Part shown: positions 79 to 53,659 of the stretch, piece after piece | Layout of the letters: the number at the start of each line of letters is the position of its first letter | How positions within the stretch are numbered: position 1 is the first letter of the stretch | From: Opitutaceae bacterium | GTDB lineage: Bacteria; Verrucomicrobiota; Verrucomicrobiia; Opitutales; Opitutaceae | DNA length: 53,762 nt | Assembly: GCA_027482185.1 (NCBI GenBank) | Contig: JAIXWF010000005.1 | Span: 1 to 53,762, forward strand | Direction: 5' to 3' | Made by a program: the position numbers and the translations under genes | The notes under the pieces: model-generated | Seen by the model: only the letters and a program-made list of their open reading frames with translations | Told to the model about the DNA's origin: nothing | The model's database searches: none

Positions 79-223
79 GCAAGGCGCGGATATCATAAGG
101 CCGCCCTCACGCCGAGGGCGACTTCGGTTGTGCGATCGCACGCGCACAGAAGCGCCTTGCTTGGAGGCAAACGCCGGACCTTCGTGCTGAACGCTGAAAG
201 CTGACAGCTGATAGCTTTCAGCT
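79..223. repeat. Core and right arm of the first inverted heptad element
   Basis: This is non-coding sequence before the first gene. It holds nested inverted repeats: GCAAGGCGC at 79-87 against GCGCCTTGC at 152-160, CGCCCTC at 102-108 against GAGGGCG at 114-120, and the perfect palindrome GTGCGATCGCAC at 130-141. The right arm at 186-220 is five degenerate heptads of the form GCTGANA. With the array at 1-77 it forms a potential long cruciform or hairpin. No gene is visible here. Confidence 0.75.
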
Positions 224-1270: not shown

Positions 1271-1419
1271 AGGGGACAGGATGGACAGGAGACGGGGGAG
1301 CGGATGAACAGGACCTGTTTCTTGAGATTTCGGGAGCAATCCCGCCCCGGACGCGGGAGCAACCTGCAGCCGCTTCCTTCCTGTTAATCAGGATCGTGGT
1401 TCCTGTCCCTCCTGTCCTC
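1271..1419. repeat. Inverted repeat element, GGACAGGA family
   Basis: The left arm, about 1271-1316, contains repeated GGACAGGA-like units (period 8-9 nt). The right arm, about 1381-1419, carries their reverse complement (TCCTGTCC, TCCTGTCCTC). The arms flank a core of about 65 nt. The element fills the gap between two convergent genes, and its right arm begins directly at the stop codon of the minus-strand methyltransferase. Confidence 0.8.
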
Positions 1420-5888: not shown

Positions 5889-6242
5889 ACGGCGGCTTTG
5901 TTCAGCCCAAGCTTCGCAAATCCAAGTTCACCACTGAGGCACAGAGAACACGGAGAAAGGCAGTCGGAGGCAAAGGAGGCTCGGGAAACCGATGCACCCT
6001 TGGCGTGAACGTGAACCCAAGGCCCCGTCGTTTCAGCTCGTTTGTCTCCGTGGCCTCCGGGTCTCTGTGGTTCAACTGCGTCGTTGGACTCGGCCGGAAT
6101 CATGCAGTTGAGAGTCCAAAGTTGAGAGTTGAGAGATCGATCCGCCGAGGCACGGACAACCTAGTCGCAGCAAAGTGCGGGCGAAACCGAACGGTTCGTC
6201 TCTCAACTCTCAACCAAGCTCACTCAACTGTATGAGTCCGGC
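5889..6242. repeat. 354-nt convergent gap with two inverted repeat elements
   Basis: There is no gene here. The first element has a left arm at 5927-5959 (CACTGAGGCACAGAGAACAC type) and a right arm at 6041-6075 that is its degenerate reverse complement (CTCCGTGG...TCTCTGTGG). The second has GTTGAGA heptads at 6107-6137 and the inverted TCTCAAC units at 6199-6230, ending at the lipoyl-transferase stop codon. The two elements lie side by side between convergent genes. Confidence 0.85.
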
Positions 6243-6980
6243 TCAGCGCTGCTCGTTCCACTCCGGGGCCGAGTAGCGTTCGGTCAGGCCCGCGACTTCG
6301 TCCTCGTTGAAATCGGGCCACGGCACGGGCTGCGCCTCGGTGCCGAGGGCGGAAGCGAGGCCGGCGACGAAGTCGTTTTCGAATCGGTCCCAGTCGACGG
6401 CGACCGCGCCGACGGCCGGTTGCCAGAGCGAGCCCTGGAAGAGGAGGCCGTGCTTGTTCCGTTTCTGGGCGGCGCCGGCGAGTTTGGCGCCGCTCTGGGC
6501 GTGGACGACGTCGTAGAGTTCGGCGCGCTGGAAACAGACTCCGCCGGGCGCGCAGTCGGCGCCCTCGGGCGGCGGCTCGCACGCGCGTTTCACCTCGGCC
6601 GGGACGCCCTGGGCCGCGAGCGCGGCGGCCAACGCCTCGTGGATGAGACGGTAGCTTTCGGCGGCGCGGACTTCCTCGAGCGGGTGGCCGCGCGGGATGA
6701 CGAGGGCGTAGGTCCAATCCTCGCGGTGGTCGACCACGCCGCCGCCGGTTTGTCGGCGGCAGAGCTCGGGCCGGGCTTCGGGATCACCGGTGAGGGCGGC
6801 GACTTGGTCGCGGACGAAGGCGAGTTTCTGGCTGTAGCCGAAGGTGAAGGCCGGCCGGTGCCAGCCGTAATGCCGGAAGCGCGGGGCCGCGGCCTGCGGG
6901 TAGCGTTGCAGGAGGAGAAAATCGACGGCCATGTTTTCGGCCGCGCCGGCGGAGCGGACGGGCAGGAGTTCGAGCACCAT
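6243..6980 (-). CDS. Lipoate-protein ligase / LipM-like octanoyltransferase family protein
   Basis: This 245-residue member of the biotin/lipoyl ligase fold should attach lipoyl or octanoyl groups to carrier domains of 2-oxoacid dehydrogenases or GcvH. RRQTGGG at 75-81 is the family signature, and Lys166 in SGAKLAGAAQKR is the invariant lysine. Cys149 in VCFQRAELYD sits where LipM/LipL octanoyltransferases carry their catalytic cysteine. A LipM-type octanoyl transferase is therefore at least as likely as an ATP-dependent LplA. The protein is short for LplA and lacks its C-terminal accessory domain. No other lipoate genes are nearby. Confidence 0.82.
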   Translation of the reverse strand: MVLELLPVRSAGAAENMAVDFLLLQRYPQAAAPRFRHYGWHRPAFTFGYSQKLAFVRDQVAALTGDPEARPELCRRQTGGGVVDHREDWTYALVIPRGHPLEEVRAAESYRLIHEALAAALAAQGVPAEVKRACEPPPEGADCAPGGVCFQRAELYDVVHAQSGAKLAGAAQKRNKHGLLFQGSLWQPAVGAVAVDWDRFENDFVAGLASALGTEAQPVPWPDFNEDEVAGLTERYSAPEWNEQR

Positions 6981-11700: not shown

Positions 11701-11783
11701 GGCGCCGCGCGGTGCAAGCCGTTCGCGGTTTTCCGCGGCCCGATCCCCAAGGACCGTTTTCCGTTTTTCCGGGGTTGTGATCG

Positions 11784-11920
11784 GTCACGGAGGGCACGGA
11801 GGAGAAAGCGGAGGTCACCGCGCGAGTTCTGCCGTGCTCCGGAGCGACTCCCCGCGGGGCGAAAATGCTGCGGGCACAACGTGATCCCGGAATCCCTCCG
11901 TGTCCTCTGTGTCCGATGGG
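11784..11920. repeat. Inverted repeat element, CACGGAG family, upstream of nadA
   Basis: The left arm at 11784-11819 contains GTCACGG, GGCACGGAGG and GCGGAGG units. The right arm at 11891-11920 (CCCTCCGTGTCC, TCTGTGTCC) is the degenerate reverse complement. Unlike most others in the window, this copy sits in a divergent gap, between the small membrane protein gene and nadA. It ends about 50-70 nt before the nadA start, where it could affect transcription. Confidence 0.75.
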
Positions 11921-13050: not shown

Positions 13051-13923
13051 ATGATTTCCCCCCGGACCGACCACTTGATCGACCTCGCCCTCGAGGAGGA
13101 CGCCGGCCTGGGCGACGTCACCAGCCGCGCGATCTTCGTACCGAGCCACCGTTCCCGCGCCTTCATCGACGCGAAGCAGGACCTCGTCCTCTGCGGCCTG
13201 GCCGTGGCGGCGCGGGTGTTCGCGCGGACCGATCCGGAGCTGAAGGTAAAACTGCTGGCCGCGGACGGCGACCGCGTCCGCGCCGGCGCGCGCGTGCTGG
13301 CGGTCGCGGGGCCGACGGCGTCGTTGCTCACCGCGGAACGCACGGCGCTCAATTTCCTGCAGCGGCTTTCGGGCATCGCGACGAAAGCGCGGCACTACGC
13401 CGCGGCCGTCGCGGGCACCGGCGTCCGGATCGTGGATACGCGCAAGACGACGCCGGGCTGGCGCGCGCTCGAGAAATACGCGGTGCGCTGCGGCGGCTGC
13501 GCCAACCACCGCTCGTCCCTGGGCGAACACGTTTTGATCAAGGACAACCACATCGCCGCCGCCGGCTCCATCGCGGCCGCGGTGGCCAAGGCCCGCGCGG
13601 CCGCCCCGCACCTCGCGAAGATCGAGGTCGAGGCAAAGACTCTTGCCGAAGTGAACGCGGCGCTGCGCGCGGCGGCCGACGTGATTCTGCTCGATAACAT
13701 GACGCCGGACCAGGTCCGCGCCGCGGTGGCGACGATCGCGGGGGCGGCGACGGTGGAGGTGTCCGGCGGCGTGCGCTACGAGACCCTGCGCGCCTACGCT
13801 ATGCCCGGTGTCGACGTGATCAGCATCGGCGCGCTCACGCATTCCGCGACCGCGGTCGACCTCAGCCTCGATCTCGTGGCCGCCGCGCCCGCGAGGAAGT
13901 CCGCGCCGAAGCGCCGCCGCTGA
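13051..13923 (+). CDS. nadC: Nicotinate-nucleotide pyrophosphorylase (carboxylating)
   Basis: This 290-residue quinolinate phosphoribosyltransferase makes nicotinate mononucleotide from quinolinate and PRPP. Typical features are EEDAGLGDVTS near the N-terminus, ERTALNFLQRLSGIAT, DTRKTTPGWRALEKYAVRCGG with the substrate-binding Arg and Lys residues, HVLIKDNH, EVEAKTL, and the C-terminal barrel strands EVSGGV and DVISIGALTHS. The last residues are a short basic tail (KSAPKRRR). The TGA of this gene overlaps the nadB ATG. Confidence 0.97.
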   Translation: MISPRTDHLIDLALEEDAGLGDVTSRAIFVPSHRSRAFIDAKQDLVLCGLAVAARVFARTDPELKVKLLAADGDRVRAGARVLAVAGPTASLLTAERTALNFLQRLSGIATKARHYAAAVAGTGVRIVDTRKTTPGWRALEKYAVRCGGCANHRSSLGEHVLIKDNHIAAAGSIAAAVAKARAAAPHLAKIEVEAKTLAEVNAALRAAADVILLDNMTPDQVRAAVATIAGAATVEVSGGVRYETLRAYAMPGVDVISIGALTHSATAVDLSLDLVAAAPARKSAPKRRR

Positions 13924-15479
13924 TGCAGATTCTGCGCACCGACTGCCTCGTGATCGGGGCCGGCCTGGCCGGCTCGGCCTATGCGCTGCGCGCGGCCGGG
14001 CTCGGGTTGTCGGTGGAACTGCTGTCGCTGTCCGAACCGCTGGCGGCGAACAGCGACTGGGCCCAGGGCGGCATCATCTACGACACCGCGCCGGCGCCCG
14101 AGGCCCTCGCCCGCGACATCCACGAGGCGAGCGACCGCACGGCCAACCCGGCGGCGGTGGCCCACCTCGTCCGCGAAGGCCCGGCCGCGGTGAAGGAATT
14201 GCTGCTGGACGAACTGCAGGTCGGCTTCGACCGCGACGCCGCCGGCGAACTCGATCTCACGCGCGAGGGCGGGCACAGCGAACGCCGCATCATCCACGCG
14301 AAGGACACGACCGGCCACGCGATCCTCGCGGCGGTGGCGGCGAAGGTGGATGCGACGCCGCGGATCCGCCGCCGCGCGGGCTGCGTCGCGATCGACCTGC
14401 TGACGCTGTCGCACAATTCCGCCGACCTGGCCGACCGCTACGAACCGCTGACGTGTTTCGGCGCCTACGTGCTCGATACGCGCACGGGCGAGACGATCGC
14501 GATCGTGGCGAAGAAGACGGTGCTGGCGACCGGCGGTCTCGGGCAGATTTTCCTGCACACAACGAATCAGCCCGGCAGCGTCGGGCACGGCGTGGCGATG
14601 GCCTACCGCGTCGGCGCGCGCCTCATCGACCTCGAGTACGTGCAGTTCCACCCGACGGTCTTCGCGAAGAAGAACGCGCCGCGTTTCCTGATCACCGAGG
14701 CGCTGCGCGGCGAGGGCGCGGTGCTGCGCAACGCGCGGGGCGAGGCTTTCATGGACGCGGTGGACCCGCGGGGCTCGCTGGCTTCGCGCGACGTCGTGGC
14801 CCGGGCGATCAAGCACGAGTTGGCGGCGAGCGGGGAGCCCTGCGCGTTTCTCGATCTTTCCGCCCTGGCGCCGGACTTCGTGCGCACGCGGTTTCCCGCG
14901 ATTTATGCGCGCTGCCTGGAACACGGCGTGGACATCACCCGCGAGCCGATCCCGGTCGTGCCGGCGGCGCATTTCGCGTGCGGCGGCGTGCACACCGACC
15001 TCGACGGCCGGACGAGCGTGCGCAACCTGTCCGCGATCGGCGAAACCGGCTGCACGGGCCTGCACGGCGCGAACCGGCTCGCGAGCACCTCGCTGCTCGA
15101 ATGCCTGGTGAGCGCGAAGTTCGCGGCGTTGGCCGACGGCACCGACATCGCGCGCGGTGGATTCCGTCTCCCGGATCCGCGCGAGTGGGAGAGCCCGACG
15201 CGCGAGGCCGATCCGGTGCTGATCCGCCAGGACATGCTGCAGATCCAGCATACGATGTGGAACTACGCGGGCGTGGTGCGTTCGCCGAAGCGGCTGACCC
15301 GCGCGCGCCGCATCTTGATCGAGCTGCGGGAGGAGATCCAAAGTTTCTACCGCGGCTGCCGGCTGACGCGGGAGCTGATCGAATTGCGCAACGCGGTGCA
15401 GACCGCGCTGCTCGTCGTGCATGCCGCCGCGCTCAACCCGCGCAGCAAGGGCTGCCACTTTGTGACCGAGGAAGAGTAA
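13923..15479 (+). CDS. nadB: L-aspartate oxidase
   Basis: This 518-residue FAD enzyme oxidises L-aspartate to iminoaspartate, the substrate of NadA. The FAD motif VIGAGLAGSAYALRAA is at the N-terminus, followed by NSDWAQGGI, HAKDTTGHAI, VLATGGLGQIF, the active-site region QFHPTVF and LITEALRGEGA, and PAAHFACGGVHTDLDGRTSV with GETGCTGLHGANRLASTSLLE. A helical C-terminal domain follows. Its ATG overlaps the nadC stop (TGATG), so the operon order A-C-B is tightly coupled. The three genes together convert aspartate to nicotinate mononucleotide. Confidence 0.96.
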   Translation: MQILRTDCLVIGAGLAGSAYALRAAGLGLSVELLSLSEPLAANSDWAQGGIIYDTAPAPEALARDIHEASDRTANPAAVAHLVREGPAAVKELLLDELQVGFDRDAAGELDLTREGGHSERRIIHAKDTTGHAILAAVAAKVDATPRIRRRAGCVAIDLLTLSHNSADLADRYEPLTCFGAYVLDTRTGETIAIVAKKTVLATGGLGQIFLHTTNQPGSVGHGVAMAYRVGARLIDLEYVQFHPTVFAKKNAPRFLITEALRGEGAVLRNARGEAFMDAVDPRGSLASRDVVARAIKHELAASGEPCAFLDLSALAPDFVRTRFPAIYARCLEHGVDITREPIPVVPAAHFACGGVHTDLDGRTSVRNLSAIGETGCTGLHGANRLASTSLLECLVSAKFAALADGTDIARGGFRLPDPREWESPTREADPVLIRQDMLQIQHTMWNYAGVVRSPKRLTRARRILIELREEIQSFYRGCRLTRELIELRNAVQTALLVVHAAALNPRSKGCHFVTEEE

Positions 15480-15508
15480 GGCGCGCTCCGGCGCGCTTTC
15501 GCTCGCAG

Positions 15509-15605
15509 GTGAAAGTTGAAAGTCCGAAGTTGAAAGATCGGAACCGAACCGGCCTCAGCGCCGGAGGGGGTCCGGGACCGTTCTTTCAACCTTCAACTTT
15601 CAACC
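15509..15605. repeat. Inverted heptad element, GTTGAAA family
   Basis: The left arm at 15509-15541 is GTGAAA, GTTGAAA, GTCCGAA, GTTGAAA followed by GATCGG. The right arm at 15578-15605 reads CCGTTCTTTCAACC, then TTCAACTTTCAACC. The core between them contains a further GC hairpin (CCGGCCTCAGCGCCGG). The element fills the 125-nt gap between the convergent nadB and gmk genes and ends at the gmk stop codon. Confidence 0.9.
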
Positions 15606-16237
15606 TAGTCCGCCCGCGGCGCAGCGCCGGCCTTCACGCGCGCGAGCCCGACGATGCGGAGCAGTTCGGCGAAGTCTTCGTCGCGGGTGCGGCTCTCGAT
15701 GCGGAAATCGAATTTCGGCGCCTCCTGCAGTTCGCGTTCCGCGGTGCGCATCCGGCCGGCGATCTCGGCCTCGTTGTCCTGCGCGCGGTCGCGCATGCGG
15801 GCGACGAGGCGCTCGTGGTCGACGACGATGAAGACGGTCGTGAGGTGGCGGGCGAGGAGCGGGTTGATCCGGGCGGCGCGGCGGAAGCTCTCCACGCCCT
15901 GCACATCGACGCTCATGACGAGGTTGCGGCCGGCGGCGAGCGGCTCGAGCACGGACGCGGCGAGCGTGCCGTAGCGGCGGTGCGCGTCCTTGCCATGGAC
16001 CTGGGCCCACTCGAGGAAGGCGCCGGCCTGCACGCGCTGTTCGAATTCCTCCGGCGTGAAGAAGTGGTAGTGGATGCCGTTGACCTCGCCCGGGCGGGGC
16101 GGGCGCGTGGTGCTGGTGACGACGCGGGAAAACTCGGGGCATTCGGCCACCAGTCGGTCGCAGAGCGTGCTCTTCCCAGAACCGGCAGGCCCGGCCAGGA
16201 CGATCAGCACGGGAGGGACGGAAGCGGGGGCGGACAT
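15605..16237 (-). CDS. gmk: Guanylate kinase
   Basis: This 210-residue kinase phosphorylates GMP to GDP. The P-loop GPAGSGKS is at 16-23, and the GMP-binding region STTRPPRPGEVNGIHYHF lies at about 41-58. Further family blocks are FLEWAQVHG, YGTL, SVDVQGV and the lid arginines in GRMRTAERELQEA. The ATG at 16237 is chosen because the usual short leader precedes the P-loop; a longer frame upstream would duplicate the neighbour's coding strand. It is 7 nt downstream of a membrane-protein gene and convergent with nadB. Confidence 0.95.
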   Translation of the reverse strand: MSAPASVPPVLIVLAGPAGSGKSTLCDRLVAECPEFSRVVTSTTRPPRPGEVNGIHYHFFTPEEFEQRVQAGAFLEWAQVHGKDAHRRYGTLAASVLEPLAAGRNLVMSVDVQGVESFRRAARINPLLARHLTTVFIVVDHERLVARMRDRAQDNEAEIAGRMRTAERELQEAPKFDFRIESRTRDEDFAELLRIVGLARVKAGAAPRAD

Positions 16238-20966: not shown

Positions 20967-21650
20967 ATGCAAAACGTCAGTCATTTCTGGGAACTGATCC
21001 TCGGCACGATCATCGCGCTGCTGCCGCTGATCAATCCGCTCGCCTCGGCGCCGACGTTCCTCGCGATCACGGAAGGCGATTCGCACGAGCGCCGCATGCA
21101 GCAGCTGCGGCACGCGTGCTTCTACATGGTGGCGATCCTCGTGAGTTTCCTGATCGGCGGGACCTTCATCATGGGCTTCTTCGGCATTTCGATTCCCGGA
21201 TTGCGAATCGCTGGCGGCCTGTTGGTGGCGGGCATCGGTTCGACGATGCTGATGGGCCCGGCGCGCGGTTCGAACAAAGGCGACTCCGTCGCCGAGGCCG
21301 AGGCGCGGGCGAAGCGCGATATTTCGTTTTCACCGCTCGCGATGCCGATGCTAAGCGGCCCCGGCTCGATCGCCGTGACGATCGGGTTCACGTCGTTGGC
21401 GACGCATTGGTCCGACTACGTCGCGATCATCCTCGGCATCGTGATCGTGGCGCTGATCTCCTACGCGACGTTGGCCCTGTCGGAACGCGTGGTGCGCGTG
21501 ATCGGCGTCAACGGCATGAACGCGCTCTCGAAGGTGATGGGTTTCCTGATCCTGTGCATCGGCATCCAGTTCGTCGTGAACGGCGTGCTCGGCGTCGCAA
21601 CCGACCCCGCCGTCGTGCGCGCGATCCGCGATGCGGTTTTGCAGAAATGA
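20967..21650 (+). CDS. MarC-family integral membrane protein
   Basis: This 227-residue protein has six predicted hydrophobic segments, typical of the MarC/YchE family. It opens with LLPLINPLASAPTFLAIT, the conserved first helix with NP, and contains SFSPLAMPMLSGPGSIAVTIG, the hallmark internal motif with PxxxGPG. The transport function of MarC proteins is unproven; an old link to multiple antibiotic resistance was not upheld. Its stop codon lies inside a perfect 13-bp hairpin. Confidence 0.92.
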   Translation: MQNVSHFWELILGTIIALLPLINPLASAPTFLAITEGDSHERRMQQLRHACFYMVAILVSFLIGGTFIMGFFGISIPGLRIAGGLLVAGIGSTMLMGPARGSNKGDSVAEAEARAKRDISFSPLAMPMLSGPGSIAVTIGFTSLATHWSDYVAIILGIVIVALISYATLALSERVVRVIGVNGMNALSKVMGFLILCIGIQFVVNGVLGVATDPAVVRAIRDAVLQK

Positions 21651-21670
21651 GCGGCGGCTCATTTCTGCAG
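21641..21670 (+). terminator. Perfect 13-bp hairpin spanning the marC stop codon
   Basis: TGCAGAAATGAGC (21641-21653) and its exact reverse complement (21658-21670) flank a GGCG loop. The marC TGA is in the left arm. There is no U-tract directly after it; instead the GTTGAAA heptads begin. Such a stable structure over a stop codon suggests termination or mRNA 3'-end protection. Confidence 0.7.
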
Positions 21671-21765
21671 TTGAAAGCGGCAAGTTGAAAGTTGAAGGAC
21701 CGGAGATCAAACCGCGCAGATTTCCAGTTTCCGATCTTTCAACTTTCACCTTTCAACCTTCAACC
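21669..21765. repeat. Inverted heptad element, GTTGAAA family
   Basis: The left arm at 21669-21704 is GTTGAAA, GCGGCAA, GTTGAAA, GTTGAAG, then GACCGGA. The right arm at 21731-21765 is CCGATCTTTCAAC, then TTTCACC, TTTCAACC, TTCAACC. The core is about 26 nt. It lies between the convergent marC and ABC-permease genes and is the closest relative of the element at 15509-15605. Confidence 0.9.
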
Positions 21766-21798
21766 GCGCGGCCTTCGGCCGCGCCGCACCGGCCGCGC

Positions 21799-30571: not shown

Positions 30572-32410
30572 ATGCCGAGATTCCCCGTTGGCTGGCTCCC
30601 GTTGGTCCTGCTCTGCGCGTGCCTGGCGGGGTGCGCGTCGGGTCCGGAGCGCGGGCCTGCCGCCGAAACGGCGGCGCCACCGGCCGGGGCCGGGCCGCGA
30701 GTGTACGTGCTGCTGTCCGGCGGCGGCACGCCGCTGAGCAACAATTACTCGCAGTACCTGCAGGCAAAGGGCGTCTCCGAGTACTTCGCCCGCGAATTGC
30801 CGGGGGCGAAAACCTGGACGTTTTTCGGGGCCGGCAACCGGCCCGACGCACCGGCAGTGCTGGCCGACGTGCGGCGCGAGACCAAGACGGATGGCCGGCT
30901 CGTGCAGTCCTGGCTGCCCGGCGTGCTGCCGGACAACCGGCCCGCGACCCGGGCGGTGCTGCTGAAGGCCTTGCGCGAGGAAATTCTTCCCGCGGTGCGC
31001 GACGGCGGGACGCTGTTCCTCTTCGTCGGCGACCACGGCGAACTCGCCGGCGCCGAGGGCAAAAAGGAAAGCGCGATCACGCTCTGGCAGCTGAAGCGCA
31101 ACCGTCGCGGCGACGGCTGGTTCACCGACGGCCGGGAAATCCTCGGCGTCGCGGAACTGCGGCGCGAATTGGCGGCGGGGCTCGGCCGGGGCCGCGTGGT
31201 CTTCTGCATGACGCAGTGCCATTCCGGCGGCTTCCATGATCTGGGCGCCGGCGCGGGCGTCGCGCTGCCGGCGGGTTGGTTTGCGGCCGGGGCGGAACGG
31301 CCGCCGGCGCCGGCGGCGGGGCCGAAACTCCCGGTGGCGGGGTTCACGGCGACGATCGCGGCGCTGCCGGCGGCGGGCTGCGTGGCGGATCCGGATCCGG
31401 ACCGCTGGGCCGGGTACGAACGGTTTTTCCCGGAGGCGTTGGCCGGCCGGGATCTGATGTCCGGGGCGGCCAAGGGCACCGGGCAGCCGACGTTCGCGGC
31501 GGCGCATGCCGCGGCGACGTTGGTCGACCGGACGATCGACCAGCCGCGGGCGACGTCGGAGCACCGGCTCGAGGCCTGGGCCGAGGCGATCGAAACGCAC
31601 CTCGCCCGAACGCTGGCCGTAACCGCGCGGACGCAGGCGGCGGTCGCCGCGTATCATCGAACGATGGATACGGGCCGGGTGTCGGCCTCCGATCCGGCGC
31701 TGCGGGCGAAGGCGGAGCAATTTGCCGGATTCACGGCGGCGTGGGGCGAGGCGGTGCCGGCGGCGCGGACGGTGCTGACCGGCGGCACGCGGGCGCAGCT
31801 GGAGGCGGCGCGCGAGGAACGGGGTGGCGGCGGATCCCGCGGACCGGGCCGCCGGGGCCGGGCCGGGGAAGCGCGCACGGCCTGGAACACCGCGCTGCGG
31901 CCGGCGTGGCGCGCGGCGGTCGAGCGGGGCGACGCGCCCGTGCCGGCGGCGGCGCTGGCGTTCGAACGCGCGCTGACGAAGGCCGAGGCCGACGGGAAAG
32001 ATTTCCTCCTGCGGGCGGCGGACAGCACCGCGATGCTGAACGAGATCTACTGGGCTTCGGGCTATGCGGAGCCGGCGAAGACAAATCCGGCGGTTGCCGC
32101 CGCGGTCACGCGGTGGGCGGCGGAACGGCGCGCGGCGATCGTGGCCTGGGGCAAAGCGGCTGCGGATCCGGCGCTGCGGGCGGCGGCGGAGAAGGTCGGG
32201 CCGGGCCCGCAGTTTGCCGAAGGCGAACCGGAGCCGATGAGCCGGAAGACGGCGGCGGAGCGGGTGCTGTTTTACCGCCGCGTGCTGGCGGCTTGGGAAT
32301 TCCTGCTGGCGATGGACCAACGCGAGGCGCTGGCGGAGATTCGCGCGCTGCAAGCGCTGGAGGAGCTGCCGGTGAAGCCGGCGGCCGGAGGGCCGGCCGC
32401 CGGCAGTTGA
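30572..32410 (+). CDS. Lipoprotein with legumain/caspase-like cysteine peptidase dyad
   Basis: This 612-residue protein starts with a lipoprotein signal (lipobox LAGC, Cys21). The N-terminal half looks like a clan CD cysteine peptidase. Strand RVYVLLSGGG (43-52) is followed by LSNNYSQYLQ, as in C13 enzymes. Strand LFLFVGDHGE carries His155, and strand VVFCMTQCHSGGF carries Cys216 with the CHSGG context known from metacaspases. The remaining ~390 residues are Ala/Arg-rich helices of unknown role, with an RGGGGSRGPGRRGR linker near residues 416-430. The stop TGA is the first TGA of a GTTGAAA repeat. The peptidase call rests on motifs only; no homologue was searched. Confidence 0.7.
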   Translation: MPRFPVGWLPLVLLCACLAGCASGPERGPAAETAAPPAGAGPRVYVLLSGGGTPLSNNYSQYLQAKGVSEYFARELPGAKTWTFFGAGNRPDAPAVLADVRRETKTDGRLVQSWLPGVLPDNRPATRAVLLKALREEILPAVRDGGTLFLFVGDHGELAGAEGKKESAITLWQLKRNRRGDGWFTDGREILGVAELRRELAAGLGRGRVVFCMTQCHSGGFHDLGAGAGVALPAGWFAAGAERPPAPAAGPKLPVAGFTATIAALPAAGCVADPDPDRWAGYERFFPEALAGRDLMSGAAKGTGQPTFAAAHAAATLVDRTIDQPRATSEHRLEAWAEAIETHLARTLAVTARTQAAVAAYHRTMDTGRVSASDPALRAKAEQFAGFTAAWGEAVPAARTVLTGGTRAQLEAAREERGGGGSRGPGRRGRAGEARTAWNTALRPAWRAAVERGDAPVPAAALAFERALTKAEADGKDFLLRAADSTAMLNEIYWASGYAEPAKTNPAVAAAVTRWAAERRAAIVAWGKAAADPALRAAAEKVGPGPQFAEGEPEPMSRKTAAERVLFYRRVLAAWEFLLAMDQREALAEIRALQALEELPVKPAAGGPAAGS

Positions 32411-32637
32411 AAGTTGAAAGTTGAAAGACTTAAGTTGAAGGACCGGAAGTTTCCCGGTTCCCGCAGGTAGGTTGGGTCACGGAGATCACCGAGGGCGGCA
32501 CCGAGTTCACGGAGCAGGAATTGCCGGACCGGAGGTGGAGACCGCGCGAGGCACGGGCCCCGGCGAGGCGATCGATCCTGTCCTTCCCATGCCTCCTCCG
32601 TGCCGCTCCGGTTGGCCTCTGTGTCCTCTGTGAACCA
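32406..32637. repeat. GTTGAAA heptads plus a CACGGAG-family inverted element
   Basis: GTTGAAA units run from 32406 (three perfect copies, then GACTTAA, GTTGAAG and GACCGGAAG) without a matching right arm. An inverted pair of the CACGGAG family follows: left arm 32473-32518 (GGTCACGGAG, ATCACCGAG, TTCACGGAGCAGG) and right arm 32591-32637 (CCTCCTCCGTGCC, TCTGTGTCCTCTGTGAACC). Together they fill the 242-nt gap between two convergent genes. The GTTGAAA array looks like a half element invaded by, or placed next to, another family. Confidence 0.85.
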
Positions 32638-32652
32638 AGGCCTGGGCCGGGA

Positions 32653-50569: not shown

Positions 50570-51016
50570 GCGCCGCGCAGGCGGCGCTCGGGTTTTTGCG
50601 GTCTCTGCAATTCGGCCCGTTGGATTGCCGCAAAGAAACGCAGAATGCGCAAAAACGGCGGTCGAGGCCGTCGGCTTCTTGCGCCCTTTGCGCCTCTTTG
50701 CGGCGATGTCCCTGCCGGTATTGGAGGGAGCAACGCAGCGGCGCGTTCTTCAGCGACTCATTGGGTTTGGGGCCGGGGTCTTGGGTCTGGGGGCGATCGA
50801 TATGAGTTCTGGGTTTTGAGTTTTGGGTTTTGGGTTGAGGCTGAGTTTGGAGTTTGGGGTTTGGAGTTCGGGGTTTTGGGATGCGGAGAGGAGTTGGGGG
50901 ATTGCAGCGGATCGGTCTTTCAACTTTCAACCTTCGACCCATGCCGCCGGCCTGCGGCCGGCGGCATTGATTGACACCTTTTCCGCAGCGTGAACGTCTT
51001 GCGGGCTTCGTTCCCC
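50570..51016. repeat. Roughly 450-nt gap packed with three repeat blocks
   Basis: There is no convincing gene here. Block 1 has a left arm at 50622-50655 (CGCAAAG, CGCAGAA, GCGCAAA units) and a right arm at 50673-50703 (TTGCGCC, TTTGCGCC, TTTGCGG), again inverted. Block 2, about 50759-50885, is a degenerate G/T-rich heptad run (GGGTTTT, GAGTTTT, GTTTGGA, GTTTGGG, GTTCGGG). Block 3, 50915-50940, is a right-arm CTTTCAAC type (CTTTCAACTTTCAACC). A short GC palindrome (GCCGGCCTGCGGCCGGC) lies at about 50947-50963. The two flanking genes run in the same direction. Confidence 0.85.
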
Positions 51017-53659
51017 ATGCTGCGAATTCTTCGTACCCTGCCTTGCGTCGTGATGTTGGCTGCGCCGGTGTTTGCCCAGAACGGCGACCGGGCCGGCGAG
51101 GAACAGGCGCCGTTGCCGGCCCACATCGTGGTGCCGCCGGCGCCGGTGCTCACGCCGGAGCAGGAGGCGGCGACGTTCAAATTGGCGCCGGGCTTCCGGG
51201 CGGAATTGGTGGCGGCGGATCCGCTGCTCGGCGATCCGGTGGCGATGCAGTTCGGGCCCGACGGCCGGCTCTGGGTCGTCGAGATGCGCGGCTACATGCC
51301 GAATCCGGCGGCCGAGGGCGAAACGGATCCCGTCGGCGTGATCGCGGTGCTGACGGATACGGACGGCGACGGGCGCTACGACAAGCGCAGCGTGTTCGCC
51401 GACGGGCTGGCGATGCCGCGCGCGCTCGCGCTCGTGGGCGACGGCGTGCTGGTGGCGGCGCCGCCGCAGCTCTGGTTCATGCGCGACACGGACGGCGACG
51501 GCAAAGCCGATGCCCGGACCGAAGTGGCGAACGACTACGCCGACCTCAAGAATCCCGAGCACAATGCCAACGGCCTGATGTGGGCGATGGACAATTGGAT
51601 TTACTCCGCGAATTACACGGGCCGGTTCCGCTATCTCGGCGACGGCAAGTTCCAGCGCGAGGCGACGGTGACGCGCGGGCAATGGGGCATTTCGCAGGAC
51701 GACACCGGCCGCATTTTCTACAACAGCAACAGCGACCCGCTGCGCCACGACCCGATTCCTTCGGCGTACCTGAAACGCCATTCCGGTTTCCAGGCGGCCG
51801 GGACCAACGTCGCCGTCGTGCCGTCGAATCTGCGCATCTGGCCGGGCCGCGTGACGCCGGGCGTGAACCGCGGCTACCGGATTCTCGATGAGACGGGCCG
51901 CATCACGTCGATGACGGCGGCGTCGGGCCCGGTCGTCTACCGCGGTACGTTGTTTCCGGCGGAATTCCGCGGCGACGCCTTTGTGCCGGAGCCGTCGGCG
52001 AATCTGATCAAGCGGATCAAGGTGCAGGAAAAGGACGGCGTGGTCGTCGGGGCCAATGCCTACGAAGGCACGGAGTTCATGACGTCGACGGACGAACGGT
52101 TCCGTCCGGTCAATCTGTACAACGGCCCCGACGGCGCGCTCTACGTCGTCGATTTCTACCGCGGCCTGATCCAGCACCGCATCTACCTGACGTCGTTTCT
52201 GCGGCAGCAGGTGGAGGCGCGCGGGTTGGCGGAGGGCCGGGGCCGCGGGCGCATCTGGCGCATCGTGCCGGAGGGCGCGCCGCGGGCGAAGTTCGATGCC
52301 GGCCTGGCCAAGCAGGCGCCGGCGGCGTTGGTCGCGAAATTGGCGGCGGCGGACGGCTGGGTGCGCGACACGGCGCAGCGGCTGTTGGTCGAGCGCAAGG
52401 ACGCGGCGGCGGTGGCGCCGCTGCGGGCGCTGGCGACGGCGGCGGGGCAACCGGCGTTGGCGCGGGTGCATGCGCTGTGGACGCTGGACGGCTTCGGCGG
52501 CGAAGCGCTGGACCGGGCGACGGTGCTGGCGGCGCTGGGCGACGCGGATGCGCGCGTGGCGGCGGCGGCGGTGCGCGTGGGCGAGCGGTTTTTGAAGACC
52601 CCGTCGGATCCGGTTGTGCTGGAGCGCACGATCGCGCTGGCGGCGCGGCCGGAGCCGGCGCTGCGGTTGCAGCTGGCGCTGACGCTGGGCGAGACGCGTG
52701 AGGCCAAGGCGGATACGGCGCTGGCGGCGTTGGTCGCGGCGGCGGCGGCGCAGCCGTTTTTCACCGATGCGGTGGTGAGCGGATTGGCGGGCCGCGAGGC
52801 GGCGTTCATCGCGGGGCTGGCGGCGCGGGCGGCGGCCGGCGCGACGGTCGGCGACGTGATCGCGACGGCGACGGCGGCGGCGTTGCGGACGGGCCAGGCG
52901 GCGCGGATCGATGCGGTGCTGTCGCTGGTGGCCGCGGAAACGATGCCGGCGTGGGCGCGGACGGCGGTGGTGGCGGGCGTGAAGCAGTTTCTGCCGCGTT
53001 CGTCGGACGGCCGGGCGTTGAAGGCCTTTTTGCCGGTGGAGCCGAAGGCGTTGGTCGCGTTGGCGGCGGGGACGGGGCCGGACGCGGCGGCGGTGCGGCC
53101 GATGCTGGACCAGTTGAAGTGGCCGGGCAAAGTCGGCCAGGGCGATCCGGTGCGGCCGCTGACTGCGGCGGAGACGGCGCTCTTCGAGCAGGGGAAAACG
53201 CAATTCGCGGCGCTGTGCGCGGCGTGCCACCAGCCGAACGGGCAGGGGCTGGCGGGATTGGCGCCGTCGTTGGTTTATTCGAAGTGGGTGCTGGGCGACG
53301 ACCGGCTGCTCGCGCGGATCGTGCTCAACGGCAAGGTGCAGGAGAATCTCGTGATGCCGCCGTGGAAGGCGGCGTTGGACGACCAGCAGATCGCGGCGGT
53401 GCTGACCTTTGTGCGGCGCTCGTGGGGCCACGAGGAAGACCCGGTGACGCCGGCGACGGTGGCGACGGCGCGGACGGCGACGGCCTCGCGCGCGGAGCCG
53501 TTTACGGATGCGGATCTGGAAGATGCGGCGCGGCAGTTGCGGCGTGGGCGGGGCCCGCGGCCGGGCGGCGGCGGACCCGGCGGTGCGCCGGGCGGGGAAG
53601 CCGGAATGCGGAGACCGGAGGGTCGAGACCGGAATGCGGAGACCGGAAACCGGAACTGA
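51017..53659 (+). CDS. PVC-type secreted dehydrogenase with HEAT-like repeats and c-type haem site
   Basis: This 880-residue exported protein has a signal peptide cleaved near APVFAQ. An N-terminal six-bladed propeller of the glucose/sorbosone dehydrogenase-like type follows (FGPDGRLWVVEMRGYMPNP, calcium-like DTDGDG twice, GPDGALYVVDFYRG). Ala-rich HEAT-like helices span about 430-700. A C-terminal cytochrome c domain has CAACH and a likely Met ligand in VMPPW. Such 'membrane-bound dehydrogenase' proteins are expanded in Planctomycetes and Verrucomicrobia and probably oxidise sugars or alcohols. GTG at 50990 is an alternative start. The last ~20 residues are encoded by degenerate GGAGACCGGAA repeats. 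Confidence 0.9.
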   Translation: MLRILRTLPCVVMLAAPVFAQNGDRAGEEQAPLPAHIVVPPAPVLTPEQEAATFKLAPGFRAELVAADPLLGDPVAMQFGPDGRLWVVEMRGYMPNPAAEGETDPVGVIAVLTDTDGDGRYDKRSVFADGLAMPRALALVGDGVLVAAPPQLWFMRDTDGDGKADARTEVANDYADLKNPEHNANGLMWAMDNWIYSANYTGRFRYLGDGKFQREATVTRGQWGISQDDTGRIFYNSNSDPLRHDPIPSAYLKRHSGFQAAGTNVAVVPSNLRIWPGRVTPGVNRGYRILDETGRITSMTAASGPVVYRGTLFPAEFRGDAFVPEPSANLIKRIKVQEKDGVVVGANAYEGTEFMTSTDERFRPVNLYNGPDGALYVVDFYRGLIQHRIYLTSFLRQQVEARGLAEGRGRGRIWRIVPEGAPRAKFDAGLAKQAPAALVAKLAAADGWVRDTAQRLLVERKDAAAVAPLRALATAAGQPALARVHALWTLDGFGGEALDRATVLAALGDADARVAAAAVRVGERFLKTPSDPVVLERTIALAARPEPALRLQLALTLGETREAKADTALAALVAAAAAQPFFTDAVVSGLAGREAAFIAGLAARAAAGATVGDVIATATAAALRTGQAARIDAVLSLVAAETMPAWARTAVVAGVKQFLPRSSDGRALKAFLPVEPKALVALAAGTGPDAAAVRPMLDQLKWPGKVGQGDPVRPLTAAETALFEQGKTQFAALCAACHQPNGQGLAGLAPSLVYSKWVLGDDRLLARIVLNGKVQENLVMPPWKAALDDQQIAAVLTFVRRSWGHEEDPVTPATVATARTATASRAEPFTDADLEDAARQLRRGRGPRPGGGGPGGAPGGEAGMRRPEGRDRNAETGNRN

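Follow-up and report, generated by a model that had tools for sequence, protein, structure and literature searches.

The window examined here is a whole contig (C17) of 53,762 nt from the genome of an Opitutaceae bacterium (G000; 6.43 Mb, 69.9% G+C), for which a self-trained codon model, and no annotation, supplied the gene calls. The gap that follows the gene at 13923-15479 holds an element made of two arms of tandem heptads in inverse orientation around a core, and its right arm ends one base ahead of the stop codon of the right-hand gene (CTA, 15605-15607). This element and a second one at 21669, the left arm of which lies one base from a hairpin, both belong to the TTGAAAG (A) subtype of a wider family, TTGARRG; their parts are collected in Table 1 with the other features of the window. 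In genome G002 (L066), the region 3′ of the orthologue of gene 13923-15479 contains inverted elements with CGCGAATNN (9-nt) and GGTGAGAC (8-nt) units.

Table 1. Heptad-armed elements, related arrays and adjoining features in the window.
Feature	Position	Strand	Remark
TCAGCGG heptad array, contig start	1-78	+	
Inverse AGCTGAN heptads	186-223	-	
Left arm, 9-nt GGACAGGAN element	1274-1290	+	
Right arm, 9-nt GGACAGGAN element	1401-1417	-	
Left arm, weak 9-nt CACAGAGAA array	5931-5957	+	
Right arm, weak 9-nt CACAGAGAA array	6046-6074	-	
150-nt MITE-like element	6093-6242	.	includes interval 6107-6230
Left terminal inverted repeat GCCGGAATCATGCAG	6093-6107	+	flanking 3-mer TCG at 6090-6092
Left arm, four heptads TTGAGAG TCCAAAG TTGAGAG TTGAGAG	6108-6135	+	
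Right arm, four inverse heptads	6200-6227	-	
Right terminal inverted repeat	6228-6242	-	followed by TCA (6243-6245), which serves gene 6243-6980 as stop codon
Left arm, CACGGAGG-type inverted element	11780-11802	+	divergent gap; absent from the first-pass annotation
Right arm, CACGGAGG-type inverted element	11895-11917	-	divergent gap
TAA stop codon of left gene (13923-15479)	15477-15479	+	
Short GC hairpin, stop codon to left arm	15481-15496	.	RNA fold; abutting-hairpin score just 3
Left arm, four heptads GTGAAAG TTGAAAG TCCGAAG TTGAAAG	15509-15536	+	
Core, begins ATCGGAACCG	15537-15582	.	
Right arm, three inverse heptads CTTTCAA CCTTCAA CTTTCAA	15583-15603	-	
13-bp hairpin	21640-21669	.	5′ arm coincides with the 3′ end of gene 20967-21650, including TGA
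Left arm, four heptads TTGAAAG CGGCAAG TTGAAAG TTGAAGG	21671-21698	+	
Right arm, four inverse heptads	21736-21763	-	
GC hairpin	21766-21784	.	2 nt beyond right arm of the 21669 element
TTGAAAG arm	32407-32441	+	beside 12-bp hairpin in the coding end of a gene; TGA stop from heptad
Left arm, GCAAAGAAA-type element (marginal)	50624-50655	+	
Right arm, GCAAAGAAA-type element (marginal)	50676-50707	-	

The first-pass annotation of this DNA had proposed that seven gaps share one architecture, with two inverted arms of short tandem units around a unique core. When each interval was compared with 200 dinucleotide shuffles, the inverted-arm score was reached by none of the 200 for 1-223, 1271-1419, 6107-6230, 15509-15605 and 21669-21765, and the proposal stands for these five; interval 50622-50703 was marginal (0.02 for inverted and 0.04 for tandem structure) and 5927-6075 was weak (0.065 and 0.045, respectively). 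Elements at 11780-11917 and 32407-32652, as well as one array in the gap 50570-51067, had been missed. The observation of inverted, heptad-armed gap elements is thus confirmed as real. No Rfam family matched the window at gathering thresholds. The contig itself starts within a heptad array, and its end may therefore be an assembly break in a repeat.

To these data we added positions 1-1,200,000 of contig C3 of the same genome, so that 1.25 Mb, about one fifth of the genome, was covered in full, and scored tandem runs of period 6-10 in 552 gaps of 60-700 nt. Runs reaching the cut-off score of at least 10 were found in 46 of 98 convergent gaps (0.4 after shuffling), 47 of 327 co-directional gaps (3.6) and 4 of 127 divergent gaps (2.2), which bears out the claimed preference for convergent gaps, and the period was 7 in 74 of the 97 best runs. 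The units fall into the families TTGARRG, GCTGANN, GGAGTTC, ACCGGAN, GCGRATT and GGGTTYT, besides an 8-mer (GGGACCAA) and the 9-mers GGACAGGAN, CACGGAGNN, CACTGATGN and GGGACGGAT. Arms within a gap paired beyond chance: inverted agreement of at least 0.6 occurred in 22 of the 54 gaps with several arrays, against 4.2 expected by re-pairing arms between gaps, and agreement in direct orientation occurred in 3, against 0.9. The two arms of an element, said to agree throughout, do so on average and not in every gap, many of the remaining multi-array gaps showing mixed unit types; likewise, the unit differs between elements, as had been noted, partly because several unit families occur in the same gaps. 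Arrays are also polar: read from the edge of the gap, the G-rich strand points into the gap in 64 of 70 arrays where genes converge, in 24 of 31 and 43 of 61 where they are co-directional, and in 5 of 6 where they diverge. TTGARRG arrays numbered 78 in the 552 gaps (0.4 after shuffling) and 82 across the 1.25 Mb, and adjacent ones 10-260 nt apart were arranged +- in 23 cases, ++ in 1, -- in 2 and -+ in none, so that 23 of 26 pairs point inward.

Pairing and core sharing are both partial. There was no strict partner for 57 of 105 arrays, and single arms are common. With the arrays masked, 20 of 112 array gaps shared at least 60 nt with another gap, a figure that is an undercount since masking also shortens the MITE-like form; the unmasked whole-gap similarity (96 of 112) was dropped as support on account of that masked figure. 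The mostly unshared cores outside the MITE-like form are below what whole-element copying leads one to expect and, together with the partnerless arrays, leave room for arms placed or grown singly. A single convergent gap of G000 (C3:52870-53337) contains three successive CACTGATG-armed copies with a common core.

Distribution of these arrays is patchy. Within the genus, a double heptad was present in 9 of 25 genomes (8 of 24 besides G000), three of them with a single hit; there were 55 hits in G006, the sister genome and closest relative found, 44 in G013 and none in 16 same-genus genomes. The exact paired TTGAAAG pattern was found in 108 stretches of the species collection (far loci), and the 80 that were listed include records from Bacteroides, Parabacteroides and Chitinophagaceae, as well as assembled genomes titled Acidobacteriota, Chloroflexi, Planctomycetales, Gammaproteobacteria, Chamaesiphon, Oscillospiraceae and Desulfurivibrionaceae. 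The strict paired pattern occurred in 1 of 288 genomes of the phylum of G000; G000 itself has no strict-pattern match, and strict patterns thus undercount. Four viral contigs of IMG/VR (L309-L312), so titled, also carry the strict TTGAAAG pair. Among the arrays of far loci that lie outside the chosen pairs, 10 of 14 neighbouring pairs point inward. In two loci from Oscillospiraceae and Ruminococcaceae (L140 and L149), TTGAAAG elements have a near-identical core, which points to transfer or shared ancestry. AACTCCG was considered as a second cross-phylum unit and rejected, being present in just 2 of 16 far genomes.

Some of the families prefer arms of one length. Counting units in phase, with at least 6 of 7 letters matching, exactly four units were found in 51 of 75 TTGARRG arms from G000 and 44 of 59 from G006, and in 160 of 282 arms from the 108 far loci, where unit counts are biased because the loci were picked by an exact two-unit pair; by record title, the four-unit arms of the 80 listed far loci amounted to 70 of 116 in Bacteroidota and 45 of 95 in the others. 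The preference extends to ACCGGAN (10 of 12) and GCGRATT (5 of 6), and not to GGAGTTC and GCTGANN, whose arrays are broad in length and unit number. Additionally, in contiguous strict four-unit arms, base 1 varies in units 2-3, where it is often C or G, and hardly varies in units 1 and 4, where it is mostly T (20 arms from G000, p=0.004; 19 arms from G006, p=3.4e-5). With units specific to their position, the arms resemble whole inherited modules rather than products of free slippage. A reading of the arrays as G-quadruplexes was discarded, as only 1 of 92 period-7 arrays has canonical quadruplex potential.

The element at 6093-6242 exemplifies a 150-nt form in which a core lies between an arm of four heptads and one of four inverse heptads, with a terminal repeat (GCCGGAATCATGCAG at the left) outside each arm; taken together with the target 3-mer, the ends read TSA-GCCGGRNTCATGCAG. 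A search within the genus retrieved at least 31 dispersed long matches each from G000 and G006, and there were more copies on C3; matches in G013 and others were shorter. We aligned 65 copies, 25 from stretches covering at least 120 nt and 40 taken singly, leaving out 13 matches of less than 120 nt to the 150-nt element and inverse self-matches. The 3-mers flanking the two ends were identical in 34 of the 65 copies, against 0-6 of 65 at offsets of 1-8 outward (in the window copy they are unequal, TCG and TCA). These identical 3-mers were TCA (17), TGA (13), TTA (2), TAA (1) and CGG (1), while the inverted TGA/TCA combination, which a TSA included in the terminal repeat would give, occurred in 3 copies; the excess of direct over inverted combinations indicates a direct target duplication of 3 bp. 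Having both terminal inverted repeats and a target-site duplication (TSD), this form is clearly a mobile, MITE-like element. Insertion sequences with TNA duplications exist, none of them linked here to this element. We found neither an autonomous copy nor a transposase with these ends among the matches listed, with about one fifth of the genome covered in full, and four intervals of 400-3500 nt with inward arms, inspected for an autonomous element, had no protein in common.

The placement of this form is closely tied to gene ends. For 28 of the 34 copies, the duplicated 3-mer coincides exactly with the stop codon of an adjacent gene, and 42 of the 65 have an end that abuts a stop codon, in agreement with the claim that elements end at or near stop codons; none of the 65 copies is internal to a called gene, and 31 occupy convergent gaps, compared with 1 in a divergent gap. 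The target reads C-TSA-G, with C in 32 of 33 and G in 26 of 33 copies, and CTSAG sites that break no gene comprise 188 TGA stops and 145 other sites. Against this null the excess at stop codons is moderate (28 of 30 TCA/TGA copies versus 56%, p=1e-5; p=5e-4 with n=33), and most of the placement can be accounted for by the target preference together with the loss of harmful insertions. As the stop-codon placement of the 6093-6242 form is a target-site duplication, it need not mean function.

The TTGAAAG form differs in its surroundings. The CATGCAG end of the terminal repeat accompanies 3 of 44 A-subtype arms in G000 and 3 of 38 in G006, and 16 of 35 and 11 of 21 G-subtype arms, respectively; the element at 15509 lacks a terminal repeat and a definable TSD. 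Instead, a GC-rich hairpin with a stem of at least 6 bp abuts 23 of 44 A-subtype arms in G000 and 21 of 38 in G006, compared with 1.4 and 3.4 after shuffling and with 9.2% of 336 post-stop windows. This result is post hoc, obtained after the subtype split and a restriction to hairpins that abut the arm, and was seen separately in G006; when all families had been taken together beforehand, the signal was weak (24 of 71 versus 21.6% of control windows). The hairpin sequence is locus-specific, different at each A-subtype arm, and its distance from the arm is 2 nt in 15 and 1 nt in 4 of the 23 cases. In 9 of them the hairpin follows the stop codon and in 2 it includes this codon; in 3 the codon is at the foot of the hairpin, in 6 it comes after the hairpin, the coding end being folded, and 3 have no gene end nearby. 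For G-subtype arms the figures are 5 of 35 in G000 (1.8 shuffled) and 7 of 21 in G006 (0.4), and at far loci the association is weak (15 of 276 versus 8.3 shuffled; 12 versus 2.7 for stems of at least 7). The hairpin at 21640-21669 is kept in G006, with one compensated inner pair. Twenty-five genomes gave a hit to this locus and, after four partial or distant ones were left out, the element was present at 2 of 21 orthologous loci; the other 19 lack it, and their best stem is of 7 or less. At the places listed for G013, TTGAAAG heptads mostly come next to the CATGCAG end, on its inner side, and one copy (L326) has CATGCAG/TTGAAAG ends on both sides, adjoining CAG/CTCAG, which ties the 6093-6242 form to the TTGAAAG form. 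Judging from the common arm and the placement, the TTGAAAG form would be mobile and of the same kind as the 6093-6242 type.

Alignment of 22 orthologous gaps between G000 and G006, 11 of them with an array in at least one species, revealed both gain or loss of arms and change in place. An element or arm is present in G006 alone at C3:291763, 295094 and 298378, and an arm in G000 alone at C3:407059. At C3:405902 the left arm differs between the sisters and the right arm is identical, the two arms being of different subtype in either sister. The arrays at 437284 and 58460 keep their position while their units are replaced, an in-place turnover which indicates that slippage also acts. At C3:405110-405271, two ACGGGCG direct repeats of G000 flank an additional inner arm that is absent from G006 (L288), owing either to nested insertion in G000 or to deletion from G006.

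We propose that TTGARRG elements are small non-autonomous inserts, akin to MITEs or REPINs, with ends formed by inverted four-heptad arms (28 nt), each with a short motif on its inner side, a proposal to which we give an even chance. Elements of the 6093-6242 type insert at CTSAG sites and duplicate 3 bp. Both arms would be present at the birth of the element, which would be why they agree, and each would drift separately afterwards; the location at gene ends would follow from the CTSAG target being common as C-TGA-G stops and from the loss of insertions that break genes or promoters. A more tentative extension, which we consider rather improbable, is that the 28-nt arm is a cross-phylum recognition module of a mobilising enzyme, with forms that land on stop codons and forms that settle after hairpins; in the latter, the hairpin was possibly made by fold-back copying of the gene end. 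The main competitor is in-place slippage with a favoured 7-nt step, already raised for other heptamers (PMC4692102 and PMC4679880, in the excerpts available), which would make long simple repeats tolerated at gene ends. The dominance of period 7 (74 of 97), the kept positions with turned-over units at 437284 and 58460, the broad unit numbers of GGAGTTC and GCTGANN arrays and the sharing of masked cores by just 20 of 112 array gaps all suit it; however, slippage alone does not lead one to expect four-unit arms, position-specific units and inward pairing, nor the terminal repeats and TSDs of the 6093-6242 form, and we think it unlikely to be the whole account. Somewhat less probable still is a selected function at 3′ ends, with bidirectional hairpins that halt transcription or protect RNA between convergent genes. 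The preference for convergent gaps agrees with this, as do the arm pairs themselves, which fold strongly as RNA (mean z of -4.1, 21 of 23 below -2 versus shuffles, one of the 24 pairs being left out for exceeding 260 nt); yet none of the 23 pairs has a T run of at least 5 within 20 nt outside the arms on either strand, so these are not intrinsic terminators and a bidirectional terminator of that type, as suggested in the first-pass annotation, is not supported. The unmirrored order of units (see below), the patchiness within the genus (9 of 25 genomes), the many single arms and a target site that explains the placement of the MITE-like form also weigh against it. The hairpins may have a role at mRNA 3′ ends, and in our proposal a strong hairpin may affect these ends secondarily. 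A variant in which each gene end bears its own arm as a tag would accommodate single arms and was abandoned because the inward rule holds in co-directional gaps too (24 of 31 and 43 of 61 arrays).

Two further explanations appear very unlikely. Agreement between arms had been attributed to correction of one arm against the other or to copying by template switching, and paired arms are indeed closer in A/G subtype than re-paired ones (p=0.014 with 24 TTGARRG pairs, two of which share one right arm; p=0.006 with 23); the hairpin at 21640-21669, moreover, resembles an inverted copy of the 3′ end of the gene, and one of its pairs is compensated in G006; the flanking hairpin may thus be subject to fold-back copying. 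Unit order, on the contrary, is not mirrored between arms, with 339 of 406 letters identical when counted from the outer end (shuffling the order gives 341.9 +- 2.8) and 336 from the inner end (341.7 +- 3.3), and at C3:405902 the left arm changed while the right one stayed identical; this unmirrored order and one-sided change leave the correction model unsupported, and we accord it a very small probability. Mobilisation as REPINs by a RAYT (Y1) transposase is equally hard to credit. The gross layout is that of REPINs, as far as described in the excerpts of PMC3116915, with an inverted doublet that forms a hairpin, and Y1_Tnp occurs in 13 of 17 far element genomes, in 23 of 27 genomes of the genus and once in G000. 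Against this, a TTGARRG array was found at none of 60 RAYT loci, 9 of which lack a usable frame; 7-9-nt arrays were not enriched in the flanks (8 of 51, versus 91 of 300 random C3 genes); and 4 of the 17 element genomes, one represented by a Bacteroides salyersiae record, gave no Y1_Tnp match. A 3-bp TSD is not what Y1 enzymes are known to produce. The sole RAYT/Y1 gene of G000, at about 1370-2435 of L051 (G000:C20:426281-429607), is bracketed by a 21-nt inverted repeat, GTCACGTCCGGAATCCGGAAT, which includes two CCGGAAT heptads; a very similar 21-nt repeat flanks the RAYT of G016 at L217, and several other RAYTs have GGGGTCA-type flanks. The L051 repeat had looked supportive of a RAYT/Y1 mover, which the counts from the RAYT loci and their flanks ruled against.

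Comparison with described repeats, following the available excerpts of each source, places the non-autonomous inserts proposed here among known types in variant form, and they are not a new class of genetic system. Rehm et al. (2015; PMC4692102) describe GGGAATC/GGGGAYT heptamer arrays in Xanthomonas and Nostoc, with 70 and 75 inverted pairs in two Xanthomonas genomes and no known function; a preference for four units was linked there to G-quadruplexes, the G-rich strand coincides with the sense strand in arrays up to 50 bp from stop codons, arrays are rare between divergent genes, and they generally lack association with mobile elements and occupy a more stable setting. The elements of G000 share with them the heptamers, the four-unit preference (in TTGARRG, ACCGGAN and GCGRATT, not in GGAGTTC or GCTGANN), the inverted pairs, the orientation of the G-rich strand near stop codons and the scarcity in divergent gaps, whereas they differ in that 1 of 92 arrays is quadruplex-capable, one form has terminal repeats and TSDs, and many unit families coexist in one genome. 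The TAACTGA repeats of MacGregor (2015; PMC4679880) are also intergenic heptamers, patchy across distant phyla, for which horizontal transfer was suggested; however, the main genome of that study has 169 direct sets and one indirect, most of them just before start codons, unlike the inverted arms near gene ends seen here. REPINs (Bertels and Rainey, 2011; PMC3116915) are likewise dispersed, extragenic, hairpin-forming inverted doublets with a spacer, but the arms here are tandem heptads without a RAYT link, and one form has a 3-bp TSD. The MITE-like form resembles ERIC, RUP and YPAL/RU-2 (PMC2229807) in its size below 200 nt, terminal inverted repeats and TSD, and the TTGAAAG arms, which adjoin hairpins, recall YPAL, whose targets span or adjoin dyad symmetry; most elements in that source are A+T-rich, whereas the form here is G+C-rich, with a CTSAG target, a stop-codon TSD and subterminal heptads. 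In the literature available in this partial form we found none on heptad-armed MITEs or stop-codon TSDs in bacteria, which is not proof of absence.

The pattern in the window is thus partly explained as mobile elements, with a rule of four heptads per arm. At least one heptad-bearing form is mobile, which offers a testable origin for part of the "heptameric repeats" of bacteria; arms count to four without G-quadruplexes, and placement at stop codons can arise as an effect of the target site. Together, this would show how repeats can fill the gene ends of a dense genome without breaking genes.
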